Positions 2,222 to 7,451 of a DNA stretch of 7,451 nucleotides are shown here, one piece after another. Under the pieces are notes generated by a model. The model searched no databases. It saw nothing but the letters and a program-made list of their open reading frames with translations, and was not told the origin of the DNA. The position numbers were made by a program, and so were the translations under genes. Within the stretch, counting starts at the first letter, position 1. The number at the start of each line of letters is the position of its first letter. This DNA comes from Deltaproteobacteria bacterium TMED58 (GTDB lineage: Bacteria > Desulfobacterota_D > UBA1144): assembly GCA_002167555.2 (NCBI GenBank), contig NHDL02000001.1, positions 96,740 to 104,190 on the forward strand. The letters are read 5' to 3'.

Positions 2222-3487
2222 ATGGGTAGATTTGTAGCGTTAATTGATTGTAATAATTTTTATGCTTCATGTGAGCGTGTATTTGATCCTTCGTTAAAAC
2301 AGAAGCCAGTTGTTGTCCTTTCTAATAATGATGGATGTGTTATTGCTAGATCTACCGAAGCTAAAATGGTTGGAATAAAGATGGGTGAGCCATTTTTTAA
2401 ATGCAAAGATATTATTAAAAAAGAATCAGTGAAGGTTTTTTCCTCTAATTATACTTTATACGCAGATATGTCTAATAGAGTGATGAATATAATTAAGGAA
2501 AATTTTCAAAATGTAGAGATTTATTCTATAGATGAGGCTTTTGTCTCCATCGAAACAAGGTCGACTGAAAATTTATATAAAGAGCTTATTGCTTTAAGAA
2601 ATAAAATTTTAAAATGGACCGGGATACCTGTGTCTATAGGAGTTTCTACAACAAAAACTTTAGCTAAACTGGCTGGAAGAAAGGCTAAAAAGAAACTAGG
2701 GGTTTATTGCCTTTGTGAACCTAATGATTTTCCTGATGCTTTGAGAGAAGTTCCAGTAGGGTCGGTTTGGGGAGTGGGAAGAAGGCTAGAAAAGAAATTG
2801 TTTTTAAAAGGTCTATCTAATGCTTATCAATTAAGTTTGTTTGATAAAAAAAAAGCTCGAACTTTTGGTAGTGTTAATCTTGTTCGGACTATTTTAGAGC
2901 TTAATGGGGTGTCATGCTTAGATATTGATTCAGTTATAGAGAAGAAGAGGCAAATTACAACTTCTAGGGCTTTTGGAAGCCCTATATACTCTTTAGACTT
3001 ACTTCAGGAGGCTGTTTCAGTTTACATATCTCGGGCTGCGGAAAAGCTTAGACTCCAGGATTCAAGCTGTTCAACTATTACAGTAGCTCTTTCAACGAAT
3101 CGTTTTAGCCAGAAAGAACCATATAAGTTTCTCTTTAGAACTCAGTCATTAATTTCTTCTACAGACTCGACATCAAAATTAATTAGTGTTGGGAAAAAAA
3201 TTTTAGAATCTATATTTAAAGAAGGTTTAAGCTATAAGAAGGCTCATATCTTTCTTTCCGGTTTGGAGAGTTCTATCTCGAAACAATATTCGCTGGAGGA
3301 TGATATTTCTTCTATAGATAAAGAAACCAATCTTATGTCGGTACTCGACAAATTAAATCTTTTTTATGGTAGAGATACATTAAAGTACGCTAGTGCAGGC
3401 ATTTCACATGATTGGCTTATGAAAAGAGAGAGAAAATCTAAAAGTTACACAACAAACTGGAATGAGATTCTTACAATACAATTATAA
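2222..3487 (+). CDS. umuC: UmuC, Y-family translesion DNA polymerase V catalytic subunit
   Basis: A 421-residue, full-length UmuC. The palm opens with [18 protein letters not shown] (4-21), with D9 as first metal ligand. YSIDEAF (101-107) supplies D104 and E105. [20 protein letters not shown] is the conserved finger/palm segment, and [17 protein letters not shown] is the thumb helix-hairpin-helix. The little-finger domain follows. KLNLF at 377-381 fits a beta-clamp-binding motif (QLxLF-like). The tail [17 protein letters not shown] matches the UmuC-specific C-terminal domain (DUF4113; E. coli W-MKRE--SPRYTTRW). Those last features separate UmuC from DinB/Pol IV. Translation is probably coupled to umuD: the gap is 5 bp and a weak AAGG lies within the umuD end. 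The stop overlaps the convergent 138-aa gene by 6 bp. All key residues are present, so the enzyme should be active. Confidence 0.95.
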
Positions 3488-3898
3488 TATTATGAGAGTG
3501 GAAACTATAGCTTTAAAAAACCACAAATAAACTCTAAATACGTTACCGTTAACTAGTTTTTCAATTTCAGCAATCGATTTACCAGTAGATAGCTTATTAT
3601 GACTTGGGACTTGAAGAAGAAAAGTAATAATCCAAATAAGTGCAACCAATGATAGATTAATCAATGAAAGAATTGAGAAATAGAAATAACATATAATTAT
3701 AGAAATCACTACTTCTATAATCATCAGAGGAATTACTAAGAAAGATATATTTTTTGTATGAAATTTATGAAATTCGACAAATTTTTCTATATCTATAAAA
3801 TTGAAAGATTTATAATGGACAAAATGTATCACAAGTATAAGACCTAAGAGAATAGAGGAGACTATTAAGTTAGAATAAAAAAGTAATACAAAACTCAC
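3482..3898 (-). CDS. Histidine-containing four-helix membrane protein, last gene of the flavoenzyme operon
   Basis: A 138-residue protein with four predicted membrane helices (about 4-26, 51-71, 75-96 and 121-138). It starts with GTG, which overlaps the stop of the upstream FAD oxidoreductase gene by 4 bp (GTGA), so translation is coupled. Polar residues stand out at helix ends: H25, H28, Y29 (HFVHY), H44 and H47 (FHKFH), E62 (MIIEV), and Q96, P98, H100, N101 (QVPSHN). From memory this pattern (VHY...H..H...P.M..E...Q.P.HN) is shared by an uncharacterised family of small membrane proteins; I know of no assigned function. The histidines could bind haem, metal or quinone, which is inference from their spacing. 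The 3' end runs 6 bp into umuC on the other strand. Confidence 0.75.
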
Positions 3899-5091
3899 TT
3901 CCTTAAGGACTCCACTAAGTTAATTCCTGATTGTATTGCCCCATCTAAACAAGGAGATGAAAGGTAATCCCCAGCAAAGTAAATATTATTATTGTATTTA
4001 TAGAAAGATTTTTCTTGGAAGTTAAAAAATTTGGGATTTGATGGCAATGCATCAGGTATTTTGTACGAATTTAAAAAACGTATATTTTTCATACTACTAA
4101 AGTAACTTAAAATTTCTTTTTCAATAGTATTTTTTGATACTTCCATAGATAAAGAAGAGACCGAAACTAATAGTTTGTTCTGAGATGCTTTTTTAAAATA
4201 TATATTTGTTATGTTATTCGAATCTGGAAATAGGTATATAAAATCCTCGTTTATATCAACCATATCAGATATAAAGTAGAAGCATTGAGTCCCATTATAG
4301 GTTATATCTTTAAAAAATTCTTGATTTAATTCTTTGTTGATTAATTTTTCAATTTTTGGATCTGTACAATATAGATTCTTAAAATTGAAGTTATCCCCAT
4401 CTTTTGTTTTAATACTATTTATTCCAATATTTATAATCTCTTTATTAAAGATAATTTTTGATGAATCTAAAAGTGAGGCTATGTTTTTAGCTATTTGGCC
4501 TATCCCATTAATAGGGATACTTACATTACTTTTTGAAAAAAGAGAAAAAATAAAAAGAAAATACTTTAGAGGTACATTTAAGCCTTTACTTAAGAAAACA
4601 CCTTGGAAAAATGAAACAAAAAAATTTTTAATAAAAGTATGACTGAACCCAAAATTTTTTAAAAAATCTTTCACGGGTATCTTTTTATTCTTATATTTTT
4701 TATTTAATAGTATTAATTTTAATAAAAGATATTTATCTTTTAAAGTGAATCCTGGAAAAGTATTAGCGGGAGATAAACCTTTAATATTTTTAAATGGATT
4801 TAATATTTTATAAAAATTTTCTTGTTTTATAGTTATAAATCCAGATGATAGTCTTTTAGACTCTAAATTATAAATTTCAGGAAATATTTTTAAATTGGGA
4901 TAGTCTTCTAGTAAAATTTGAAATCCACAATCTAATTCATATCCTAGGTGGTTTTCAGTTGAAAGCTTTCCCCCTACAGAGTTATTTTTATCAATGATTA
5001 AATAATCCTCGTTTTTATTATTCAAAAGTTTAGCAATTGTAAGCCCCGTAATTCCACTACCTATGATTATGTTGTCATATGATTTACTCAT
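3895..5091 (-). CDS. NAD(P)/FAD-dependent oxidoreductase, amine oxidase/phytoene desaturase superfamily
   Basis: A 398-residue flavoprotein. The N-terminal Rossmann dinucleotide-binding motif is IIIGSGITGL (8-17), with D34 (IIDK) in place to bind the adenosine ribose and GGK (40-42) as the second FAD contact. GYELDCGFQILLEDYP (50-65) matches the conserved GxxxDxGFQ(I/V)L...YP of a poorly characterised subgroup. The C-terminal FAD-closing motif is YFAGDYLSSPCLDGAIQSG (371-389), as in amine oxidases and protoporphyrinogen/phytoene oxidases. The middle part (about 120-190) is hydrophobic, like the substrate tunnels or membrane-contact regions of enzymes acting on lipid-like substrates. The substrate is unknown; I would not call it CrtI, which is about 490 aa and differs at the ends. 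Start and stop are fused by 4-bp overlaps to the 352-aa gene upstream and the 138-aa gene downstream. Confidence 0.85.
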   Translation of the reverse strand: MSKSYDNIIIGSGITGLTIAKLLNNKNEDYLIIDKNNSVGGKLSTENHLGYELDCGFQILLEDYPNLKIFPEIYNLESKRLSSGFITIKQENFYKILNPFKNIKGLSPANTFPGFTLKDKYLLLKLILLNKKYKNKKIPVKDFLKNFGFSHTFIKNFFVSFFQGVFLSKGLNVPLKYFLFIFSLFSKSNVSIPINGIGQIAKNIASLLDSSKIIFNKEIINIGINSIKTKDGDNFNFKNLYCTDPKIEKLINKELNQEFFKDITYNGTQCFYFISDMVDINEDFIYLFPDSNNITNIYFKKASQNKLLVSVSSLSMEVSKNTIEKEILSYFSSMKNIRFLNSYKIPDALPSNPKFFNFQEKSFYKYNNNIYFAGDYLSSPCLDGAIQSGINLVESLRK

Positions 5092-6146
5092 TCCGAAGGT
5101 GGTAATATCCAGTTTTCAGGTTTCCCTGCGTTCCCATGTACCCCTTTAAAAATTATAGAAAGATTAAATGATGCAAAAAATATAATTAGCCTAGATACAT
5201 TTGGCAATCCTAACCTCTTTTCATTTACATTGATTCTAGTTTCTATTGAGGGAATAGGATAAAAAATTGTTTCAACAGCCTTATTTCTAGATTCATTTTT
5301 ATCTTGGTAATTTTCAAATATCTCTAGATTTTCTTTAAATAGATTCATATCTTTATTTTTCATTATACTGTCTATATTTATAATTCCATTCTGACTTATT
5401 TTTGGAAGAATTAGAATGTATAAGAAAGATATTAAATTGGATATTAATGATAAATATATAATAGAAGAGCTGACAGTATAATCACTATTTAAAAAATAAT
5501 AATAAATACCAGAAAATAAAATAGAATTAAGAGAAATACTAAAAATAATAGATTTTAGATCAATTTTCATTTTCTTTATTAATTCAAATCTTTCAAGATG
5601 AAAAAAATAATTCTTTTCATTTTGCTTTACCCAGTGAATTGGAACTACTATTTTTGGACCCTTTAAGGTTCTCAATATGTTCATTGTTATATATGATGGT
5701 GAATTTGCACAGATTAATAGTGAGGAATGATTATATGATTTTTCTTGAATATTAAATATATAAGGTGTGATAACTCCTTGAAGGGCTAATAGTAGTAATT
5801 GCATTAATATTGAAAATACAAATGCTAAAAGTAAATTTTGAAGATTAAATAGAAAATATATTATGGATATAAAAATAATAAAAATTAAAAACAGAACTAT
5901 ATTACCAAATACTATTTTTTTGATACATCTATCTTCAGAGGAGTTAAGATTTTTATTTGATAGGAAATCAAAAGGCAAAGTGAATAAGATTAAAAAGAAA
6001 AAGTAAACATAGACACTTTTTATATTATCTCCAAAAGTGGATGTGATAAAGTCGGCTATATCAAAATATAAACTGAATAAAGTAAATAAAACTATTAGTC
6101 CTACATATATAATTCCAAAGGAAAGCTTGATATCATTAAACTTCAT
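5088..6146 (-). CDS. 352-aa polytopic membrane protein of unknown function, possibly a degenerate M48-like fold
   Basis: About seven predicted membrane helices (roughly 8-28, 45-64, 77-100, 103-130, 198-218, 226-248 and 315-335). A soluble loop (about 131-197) contains PIHWVKQNEKNYFFHLERFELIKK, with H171, H183, E185 and R186. A second soluble part (249-314) ends in ETIFYPIPSIETRI (292-305). The C-terminus is polar and proline-rich (HGNAGKPENWILPPSE). The layout (N-terminal helices, soluble segment with a His/Glu helix, helix pair, then a 'P...R' segment) recalls HtpX-type M48 metallopeptidases, but no HEXXH motif is present, so zinc protease activity is unlikely; this relation is speculative. 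The ATG lies 11 bp inside the renalase-like gene, and the TGA overlaps the next ATG by 4 bp. No clear ribosome-binding site is visible, so translation is likely coupled. Confidence 0.7.
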   Translation of the reverse strand: MKFNDIKLSFGIIYVGLIVLFTLFSLYFDIADFITSTFGDNIKSVYVYFFFLILFTLPFDFLSNKNLNSSEDRCIKKIVFGNIVLFLIFIIFISIIYFLFNLQNLLLAFVFSILMQLLLLALQGVITPYIFNIQEKSYNHSSLLICANSPSYITMNILRTLKGPKIVVPIHWVKQNEKNYFFHLERFELIKKMKIDLKSIIFSISLNSILFSGIYYYFLNSDYTVSSSIIYLSLISNLISFLYILILPKISQNGIINIDSIMKNKDMNLFKENLEIFENYQDKNESRNKAVETIFYPIPSIETRINVNEKRLGLPNVSRLIIFFASFNLSIIFKGVHGNAGKPENWILPPSE

Positions 6147-7092
6147 TTTTCATATATTTTTCGGCAATTGATATTCCAGATTTTATTGCACCACCAAAAT
6201 TTCCATTTGTGAATATATCCCCACACATGCCTATAAAATTATTCAGTCCTATGTTAAGGGAGTCATCATTGGGGTAGAAGTTTATAGGGATAGAATATCT
6301 CCATTTATGATTAGAGAGAATATTATATTTTTTGTTGAATATTATATCAAGCTCGGGTTTTAACATAGAATTTATCTCATCATATTCTTTTTCAAAATTT
6401 TTCACACTAAAATTAGTTGAACATATTAGGGTATAAAAGTTTTCTTTTTTAGATATGGTTTTCCTATAATTATCTGAAATAAAGCTAAAGTCATCAGATG
6501 GATTTTCCTGAAAAAATTCATAATTTAGATTAATAGAATTTTCTGATTCTATCATTAATATTATTCCGGGGGAATATTCCAAACTTCTAACTCCATTAAA
6601 TTTGTCGTTATCAATATTGACATTACTCCTATCTAGTATTTCTATTGATTGTTTGATAGGCGAGGAGAATATTATTGAATCAGAAATAATTTCTTGACCA
6701 TTTTCAAAAATTAGAGAAATTTTATCTTTATTTTCATTGATTCTAATAAGTTTAAATTCCTTGGAAACACTAAGATCTTTGCTTAGAAACTTTGGAATAC
6801 TAGTCATGCCATCATCTCCAATATATACATTTGGTACCTTAGTTTCTTTTAAGATATTATTTTTTATCAGACTTTTAATTTCAGGTAGATCATATATATC
6901 ATCTAATTTTAAATACTGAGCACCATGATCAAATTTACCCTCACTTGATCTTCTTGTAGCAAGCCTTCCACCTACTCCTCTAGACTTATCAAATAGTCGT
7001 ATATTTTTTAGTCCCCTTTTTTTTAGATGTAAAGCAGCAAAAATACCACTTATTCCACATCCTATAATTGATATCGATTTATCTAAATTCAT
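6136..7092 (-). CDS. Renalase-like NAD(P)/FAD-dependent oxidoreductase
   Basis: A 318-residue flavoprotein of the renalase family within the amine-oxidase superfamily. Visible motifs: Rossmann SIIGCGISGIFAA (8-20), DKSRGVGGRLATRR (35-48), FDHGAQY (54-60), HKWRYSIP (262-269) and the C-terminal FAD motif GMCGDIFTNGNFGGAIKSG (288-306). DKSRG-GGR-ATRR, FDHGAQY and HxWRY are hallmarks of bacterial renalases. A characterised Pseudomonas renalase oxidises 2- and 6-dihydro isomers of NAD(P)H, a repair of miscoded cofactor. Whether this protein does that or acts on another substrate is unknown, and its operon partners hint at a lipid- or membrane-linked job. It is the first gene of a four-gene minus-strand operon. 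No Shine-Dalgarno sequence is well placed (an AAGG lies about 16 nt upstream of the ATG). Length fits the family (310-340 aa). Confidence 0.87.
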   Translation of the reverse strand: MNLDKSISIIGCGISGIFAALHLKKRGLKNIRLFDKSRGVGGRLATRRSSEGKFDHGAQYLKLDDIYDLPEIKSLIKNNILKETKVPNVYIGDDGMTSIPKFLSKDLSVSKEFKLIRINENKDKISLIFENGQEIISDSIIFSSPIKQSIEILDRSNVNIDNDKFNGVRSLEYSPGIILMIESENSINLNYEFFQENPSDDFSFISDNYRKTISKKENFYTLICSTNFSVKNFEKEYDEINSMLKPELDIIFNKKYNILSNHKWRYSIPINFYPNDDSLNIGLNNFIGMCGDIFTNGNFGGAIKSGISIAEKYMKNEV

Positions 7093-7118
7093 ACTTTTAT
7101 ATATTAACCTTAATAAAA

Positions 7119-7124
7119 ATTATA
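7119..7124 (-). promoter_or_regulatory. Predicted -10 element of the renalase-like operon
   Basis: On the minus strand 7124-7119 reads TATAAT, 26 bases before the ATG at 7092. The -35 position (about 7142-7147) falls in the first codons of the divergent transporter gene and matches the consensus poorly. The element is one half of a palindrome shared with the opposing -10. Confidence 0.4.
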
Positions 7125-7132
7125 TATATAAT
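7119..7132. repeat. 14-bp perfect palindrome between divergent genes
   Basis: The 14 bases ATTATATATATAAT are identical to their own reverse complement and contain TATAAT on each strand. The palindrome sits inside the 46-bp gap between the renalase-like operon and the Nramp-like gene. It may be two abutting -10 elements, an operator, or simply low-complexity AT sequence. Confidence 0.6.
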
Positions 7133-7138
7133 AACTAA

Positions 7139-7451
7139 ATGTTAAAAAAAGTCAGAGATAAATTATCTCTTTTAGGACCCAGCATTCTGTGGGCATCTGC
7201 TGCAATTGGAGTTTCACATATTGTTCAGTCAACAAGGGCAGGTGCTACGTATGGCTATAGTTTAATTTTAATTGTCATACTAGCAAATGTATTAAAATAT
7301 CCTTTTTTTGAATTTGCGACCAGGTATACAGTTGTAAAGAATGAAACTGTTTTAGATGGATATAGAAGAATTGGTAAGTGGGCTATATATTTATATACAG
7401 CTTTAACAATTAGTACTATGTTTACAATACAGGCTGGTGTTACACTTGTCT
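7139..7451 (+). CDS. Nramp-superfamily transporter with altered metal motif, N-terminal fragment
   Basis: The first 104 codons of a gene running off the right edge. The start LSLLGPSILWASAAIGVSHIVQSTRAGATYGYSLI (9-43) aligns with the first membrane helix and following loop of Nramp/MntH proton-coupled divalent-metal transporters (GP-F-AAIAYVDPGNFATNIQAGA-FGY). KYPFFEFATRY (53-63) fits the second conserved helix (KYPxFExGxRY). In classical Nramps, Asp and Asn of DPGN bind the metal; here the aligned residues are G24-V25-S26-H27. It therefore belongs to a divergent branch whose substrate need not be Mn2+ or Fe2+. The ATG at 7139 is chosen because the homologous region begins about ten residues later and no in-frame alternative fits better. 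No ribosome-binding site is present; a TATAAT lies six bases upstream. Confidence 0.8.
   Translation, partial: MLKKVRDKLSLLGPSILWASAAIGVSHIVQSTRAGATYGYSLILIVILANVLKYPFFEFATRYTVVKNETVLDGYRRIGKWAIYLYTALTISTMFTIQAGVTLV

Follow-up and report, generated by a model that had tools for sequence, protein, structure and literature searches.

What do two unlike flavoenzymes and two membrane proteins accomplish together when their genes overlap in a single operon? We addressed this question for a stretch of 7,451 nucleotides (hereafter the window) from the metagenome-assembled genome (MAG) of Deltaproteobacteria bacterium TMED58 (G000:C5:96740-104190; source genome 1.01 Mb, 93% complete), in which renA, memB, oxC and memD all lie on the minus strand with successive overlaps of 11, 4 and 4 bp, exactly as the original prediction had described them from the letters alone, including their lengths. 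RenA is a renalase-like and OxC a phytoene-desaturase/HpnE-type oxidoreductase dependent on flavin adenine dinucleotide (FAD), and MemB and MemD are membrane proteins. We conclude that this cassette is real, conserved and selected, that it is kin to the flavoenzyme companions of the light response, and that it holds one new part, the pseudo-Ste24 protein MemB. We tentatively favor the reading that the cassette is one functional module that oxidizes, and thereby desaturates or restores, a hydrophobic molecule held in the membrane; light or oxidative stress would either damage this molecule or be the condition in which it is made. Its composition was not described in the literature searched.

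Conservation and loss within one family

The family was sampled as 14 genomes from 5 genera, taken to be marine Dadabacteria-type MAGs. The renA-memB-oxC-memD order, placed between umuC and an Nramp gene, was present in 12 of the 14 genomes and 4 of the 5 genera, with the cassette divided between two contigs in G004 and the memB frame broken in G003 and G011. Ratios of nonsynonymous to synonymous substitution rates (dN/dS) were taken from the two unsaturated genome pairs, G000/G002 being saturated at synonymous sites. The G007/G010 pair gave 0.26 for renA, 0.12 for memB, 0.18 for oxC and 0.15 for memD, and the G006/G009 pair gave 0.08, 0.12, 0.13 and 0.07, respectively. Because all four genes fall between 0.07 and 0.26, all four, memB included, are by this sequence measure working genes under purifying selection; these ratios and the recurrence of order and flanks across the 12 genomes argue that the cassette is not a product of chance.

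The G001 MAG also lacks polA, which lies ~2 kb past the cassette, and therefore the cassette region is probably missing from that assembly; a true cassette loss in G001 was dropped on this ground. In G005, umuDC is kept and adjoins a renA relic that joins residues 8-28 to ~209-314, and no trace of memB, oxC or memD was found at the site beside the relic. This relic, together with the family-wide order, indicates that the family ancestor most likely had the cassette and that it was later deleted in G005. By the relic (L224:3100-4150), an apparent Nramp start fragment is fused to a tRNA-like sequence, an arrangement resembling the scar of a deletion or a recombination.

The four proteins

Both flavoenzymes match PF01593 and NAD_binding_8, and the expectation that they derive from different branches was borne out. 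The closest solved relatives of RenA were the bacterial renalases 3kkj (E 2.4e-12, in two stretches) and 4zcc (E 6.4e-12), and phmmer aligned residues 7-312 with human renalase 3qj4 (E 1.9e-10), a similarity over the whole chain. RenA shares with renalases the FAD fold, the FDKSRGxGGRxxTRR motif and an HxWxY near the C-terminus, but differs from them in its low overall identity and in its operon partners, which occur in no described renalase system. Human renalase is reported to oxidize 2- and 6-dihydroNAD(P) (PMC10297141).

The AlphaFold model of OxC (predicted local distance difference test score, pLDDT, 92.7) found its best VIA match in rice phytoene desaturase (5mog, Z 32.7, 389 residues aligned), followed by the archaeal structures 3ka7 and 3nrn, and OxC shares its full-length fold with this group (Z 31-33). 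An L-amino-acid-oxidase-like protein, protoporphyrinogen oxidase (Z ~30) and the fatty-acid isomerase 2b9w (Z 30.3) lay within a few Z units of 5mog; protoporphyrinogen oxidases and amine oxidases as groups were only 2-5 units lower. The plant desaturase is longer than OxC (~400 amino acids), and no phytoene synthase was found in the window's genome. Among hidden Markov models, HpnE (TIGR03467) was the best match of distant OxC homologues (~1e-13 to 1e-14, 51-54 bits, below the cut-off of 283), and OxC itself scored 24.6 bits, far too low for membership in that family. Against the HemY model TIGR00562, OxC (29.5 bits) and RenA (28.9 bits) both fell below the cut-off of 97.85. By its resemblances in fold and profile, OxC appears to belong on the lipid/isoprenoid-acting side of the superfamily.

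MemB was placed by fold search alone, because searches with its sequence and against Pfam gave nothing. It has no Pfam or NCBIfam family, a Pfam search with 10 members at E values up to 10 returned noise only and no M48 match, and there was no match in a sequence search against solved structures or in a viral structure library. Its AlphaFold model (pLDDT 89.1, predicted template modeling score 0.88) matched the fold of human ZMPSTE24 and yeast Ste24 (Foldseek 4aw6, E 2.3e-4), with a VIA Z of 19.8 over 309 aligned residues and a root-mean-square deviation of 3.2; below this match, VIA scores fell to Z 4.8 for the M48 protease BepA and to 3.8 for an unrelated entry. As in Ste24/ZMPSTE24, the predicted membrane helices enclose an M48 domain, but the HExxH zinc-binding motif is absent in 10 of 10 MemB members, in which another HxxxH spacing occurs once only, and an invariant C-terminal tail unique to MemB, VHGNAGKPxNWxxPP, follows the fold. 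The helix at the expected HExxH register, assigned by element order and not by coordinates, reads NYxFHLxRF with an invariant Arg. Model and alignment together present MemB as a putative Ste24-fold pseudoprotease family that has lost its zinc motif. We know of no bacterial Ste24 fold used without proteolysis, on a search that was not exhaustive.

MemD has no Pfam or NCBIfam match, and its residues Y29, M59, W89, P98, H100, N119, R122 and W126 are invariant across phyla. The layout of the cassette is collected in Table 1.

Table 1. Positions of the cassette genes and the adjoining gap within the window
Feature	Position	Strand	Basis
renA, renalase-like FAD oxidoreductase, 318 amino acids	6136-7092	-	PF01593 5.2e-11 and renalase structure matches
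memB, membrane protein, 352 amino acids, predicted Ste24/ZMPSTE24 (M48) fold	5088-6146	-	AlphaFold model, Foldseek, VIA, motif check
oxC, phytoene-desaturase/HpnE-type FAD oxidoreductase, 398 amino acids	3895-5091	-	PF01593 1.3e-15 and model
memD, small membrane protein, 138 amino acids, GTG start	3482-3898	-	Uncharacterized family in many phyla
46-bp AT-rich gap separating renA from the divergent Nramp gene	7093-7138		Presumed promoter region

One flank of the cassette carries a sigma-70-type factor together with a UmuDC-like pair of S24 peptidase and Y-family polymerase, and the other carries the divergent Nramp gene and then polA, which was named from its sequence. In and beside the renA/Nramp gap, weak consensus matches lie near 7104-7132 and 7155-7128, and shuffled sequence gives as many. 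The Nramp gene (window 7139-7451; L004:3878-5115) falls into two separate frames and contains 13 N bases, while the open reading frame (ORF) of relatives is intact at ~411 amino acids; the split in the window's MAG is probably an assembly fault. Directly upstream of the umuD-like gene, positions 1374-1751 hold a 125-amino-acid membrane ORF with no Pfam family, which is conserved throughout the family and present as a duplicate in G005.

Recurring pairs and a possible link to light

The original prediction held that recurrence of the same order in distant taxa would support a system, and that families occurring mostly apart, with the order confined to one species cluster, would speak against it. 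A search for memB in 43 further genomes of the class found none, and among 386 genomes of 317 genera the only match outside the family was a marginal partial one in G099 (E 0.006); by these searches memB and the full four-gene order appear confined to one bacterial family in the genomes sampled. Homologues of memD occur in Bacteroidota, Oligoflexia, Bdellovibrionaceae, Lentisphaera, Neomarinimicrobiota and others. Among 372 outside genomes, 10 carry memD and 6 carry strong oxC relatives, with both present in 2 (hypergeometric P 0.009). At L217, oxC overlaps a renalase-like gene by 4 bp; in the Chitinophagales locus L163, oxC is followed by an adjacent memD; and the Flavobacteriaceae loci L162 and L090 each place oxC in a single run after a DPRP-type photolyase, memD and an NAD_binding_4 reductase. 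The Flavobacteriaceae operons share the oxC and memD families with the cassette but differ from it by including photolyases and the reductase and by having no memB and no renA. A plasmid search returned solitary distant homologues of oxC, memD and renA, whose partners were not with them. The outcome thus speaks in part against a system: in the genomes sampled the full order did not leave one family, although the pairs oxC-renA and oxC-memD recur in distant phyla.

Apart from these pairs, oxC homologues adjoin two DoxX-type small membrane proteins in Oligoflexia (L159:1572-3440) and in a flavobacterium (L157:6936-9029), with PF13564 confirmed in L159 only, which suggests that DoxX-type proteins are a further recurrent oxC partner.

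A photolyase-family gene lay within the fetched flank of memD at 8 of 27 distant loci in a first set and at 2 of 10 loci in a broader sample, several of these loci being from related flavobacteria and not independent. Chance alone would yield ~1-2% by our own estimate, which assumes that a 3-Mb genome has a few photolyase genes. Within the family, 12 of 14 genomes yielded a photolyase; the two without one are G005, the lineage with the renA relic, and G004 (77% complete). In the one lineage that lost the cassette, G005, photolyases are thus also missing, which suggests a redox or repair role at the membrane tied to light damage. Dependence on proteorhodopsin was considered and rejected, as the window's genus has no rhodopsin match and keeps the cassette. 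Also in this genus, two large membrane ORFs (~800 amino acids) follow a photolyase gene (L127:8930-13758, L136:2388-7237).

Among described systems, UfaD offers the nearest parallel. This NAD/FAD protein, encoded in the RSP1087-1091 operon, resembles phytoene desaturase and desaturates acyl chains of membrane phospholipids (PMC7380195), and a light-induced operon holds PhrB, an FAD-dependent oxidoreductase and UfaM (PMC9758184). In the light/singlet-oxygen regulons of Rhodobacter (UfaD-UfaO-UfaM) and Pseudomonas (the pmlR1/LitR cluster), photolyases share a regulon with a phytoene-desaturase-like FAD enzyme whose substrate is membrane lipid (PMC7380195, PMC9758184). The cassette departs from these systems in that no UfaM/Cfa-type motif was found in the window's genome and no LitR-type regulator lies beside it. 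By analogy, OxC may work like UfaD, which is not to claim that it is UfaD. Our literature searches returned no paper pairing renalase with photolyase.

Candidate functions of the cassette

In the mechanism that we favor, OxC would act at the membrane surface and oxidize a long lipid, polyprenyl or quinone-like chain, while MemD, through its conserved polar residues, might present the substrate or pass electrons. MemB, its zinc site lost, may have been kept as a membrane scaffold or hydrophobic chamber, and RenA could reoxidize either the reduced carrier or a small cofactor that has been reduced or mis-reduced, for example an off-pathway NAD(P)H isomer. Here we infer the substrate, complex formation, electron flow and light induction of the cassette. 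A more specific version, in which MemB as a dead Ste24 protease forms an intramembrane chamber or scaffold for the two unlike flavoenzymes within an undescribed membrane-lipid/quinone repair module of sunlit-ocean bacteria, strikes us as rather unlikely.

Several observations weigh against a single light-linked membrane module. The fold of OxC does not decide its substrate class, because phytoene desaturases, protoporphyrinogen oxidases and amine oxidases score within a few Z units of one another. Photolyases are missing from the surroundings of most distant memD and oxC loci, and within the family the cassette is not adjacent to photolyase genes. The correlation between photolyase and cassette in the family comes from one loss event, in G005, and the light link is only suggestive for that reason. 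As judged by homology searches, the memD and oxC families are usually apart outside the family, and since memB was not found beyond it, any wider module would not need every part.

In an alternative reading there is no single system and the cassette is an inherited, streamlined operon whose enzymes act separately, with overlaps imposed by a small genome (1.0 Mb) and order kept by descent. We consider this somewhat unlikely, while acknowledging that memB and the full order are found in one family only, that memD and oxC mostly live apart elsewhere and that the flanking genes are just as syntenic as the cassette. Separate action is harder to reconcile with the exact order being kept although the proteins diverge to ~40-50% identity, with the joint loss of memB, oxC, memD and most of renA in G005, and with the re-formation of oxC-renA and oxC-memD pairs in unrelated genomes. 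The original proposal of one system with a redox or lipid/isoprenoid role holds to the extent that the cassette is kept and selected as a unit in one family and that the role fits the fold, and it is curtailed by the restriction of the order to that family.

The remaining alternatives assign a specific chemistry. That the cassette replaces HemG/HemJ/HemY as a non-canonical oxidase of protoporphyrinogen or another tetrapyrrole would accord with the absence of HemJ (PF03653) from 14 of 14 family genomes, with the match of OxC to protoporphyrinogen oxidase structures, with RenA and OxC being the only amine-oxidase-type flavoproteins found among G000 ORFs (no other HemY-like protein was seen), and with ORFs of L003 that resemble cytochrome oxidase and heme A/O synthase and whose sequences suggest a need for heme. 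It is nonetheless improbable: a crude motif scan of G000 (93% complete) recovered HemB and a single HemN-like ORF and did not find HemE, HemC or HemH, and therefore no protoporphyrin route is visible there, and G005 (93% complete) lost the cassette. Quite improbable, too, is a carotenoid (phytoene-type) desaturation module, despite the plant phytoene desaturase being nearest to OxC in fold and rhodopsin-bearing relatives making retinal (PMC8115339). The relatives' rhodopsin cluster has its own crtI, G000 keeps the cassette with no rhodopsin match, and a carotenoid role is unlikely because no homologue of the crtB, crtI, crtY or blh of that cluster was found in G000 ORFs. Finally, the strong match to Ste24 over 309 residues might be taken to mean that MemB is an active Ste24-like protease maturing a prenylated or membrane peptide that the flavoenzymes modify, but the lack of HExxH in every MemB member, the single instance of another HxxxH spacing and the NYxFHLxRF helix with its invariant Arg at the presumed position of the zinc site render this extremely improbable.

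The memD and oxC families are widespread, are un- or vaguely annotated and have photolyase companions in several lineages; the cassette joins them to a renalase-like enzyme and a membrane pseudoprotease. Should the single-module reading prove true, it would supply a first function for the MemD family, MemB would be a bacterial example of the Ste24 fold used without proteolysis, and the cassette would connect light damage, in a testable way, with membrane lipid or quinone chemistry in streamlined ocean bacteria.

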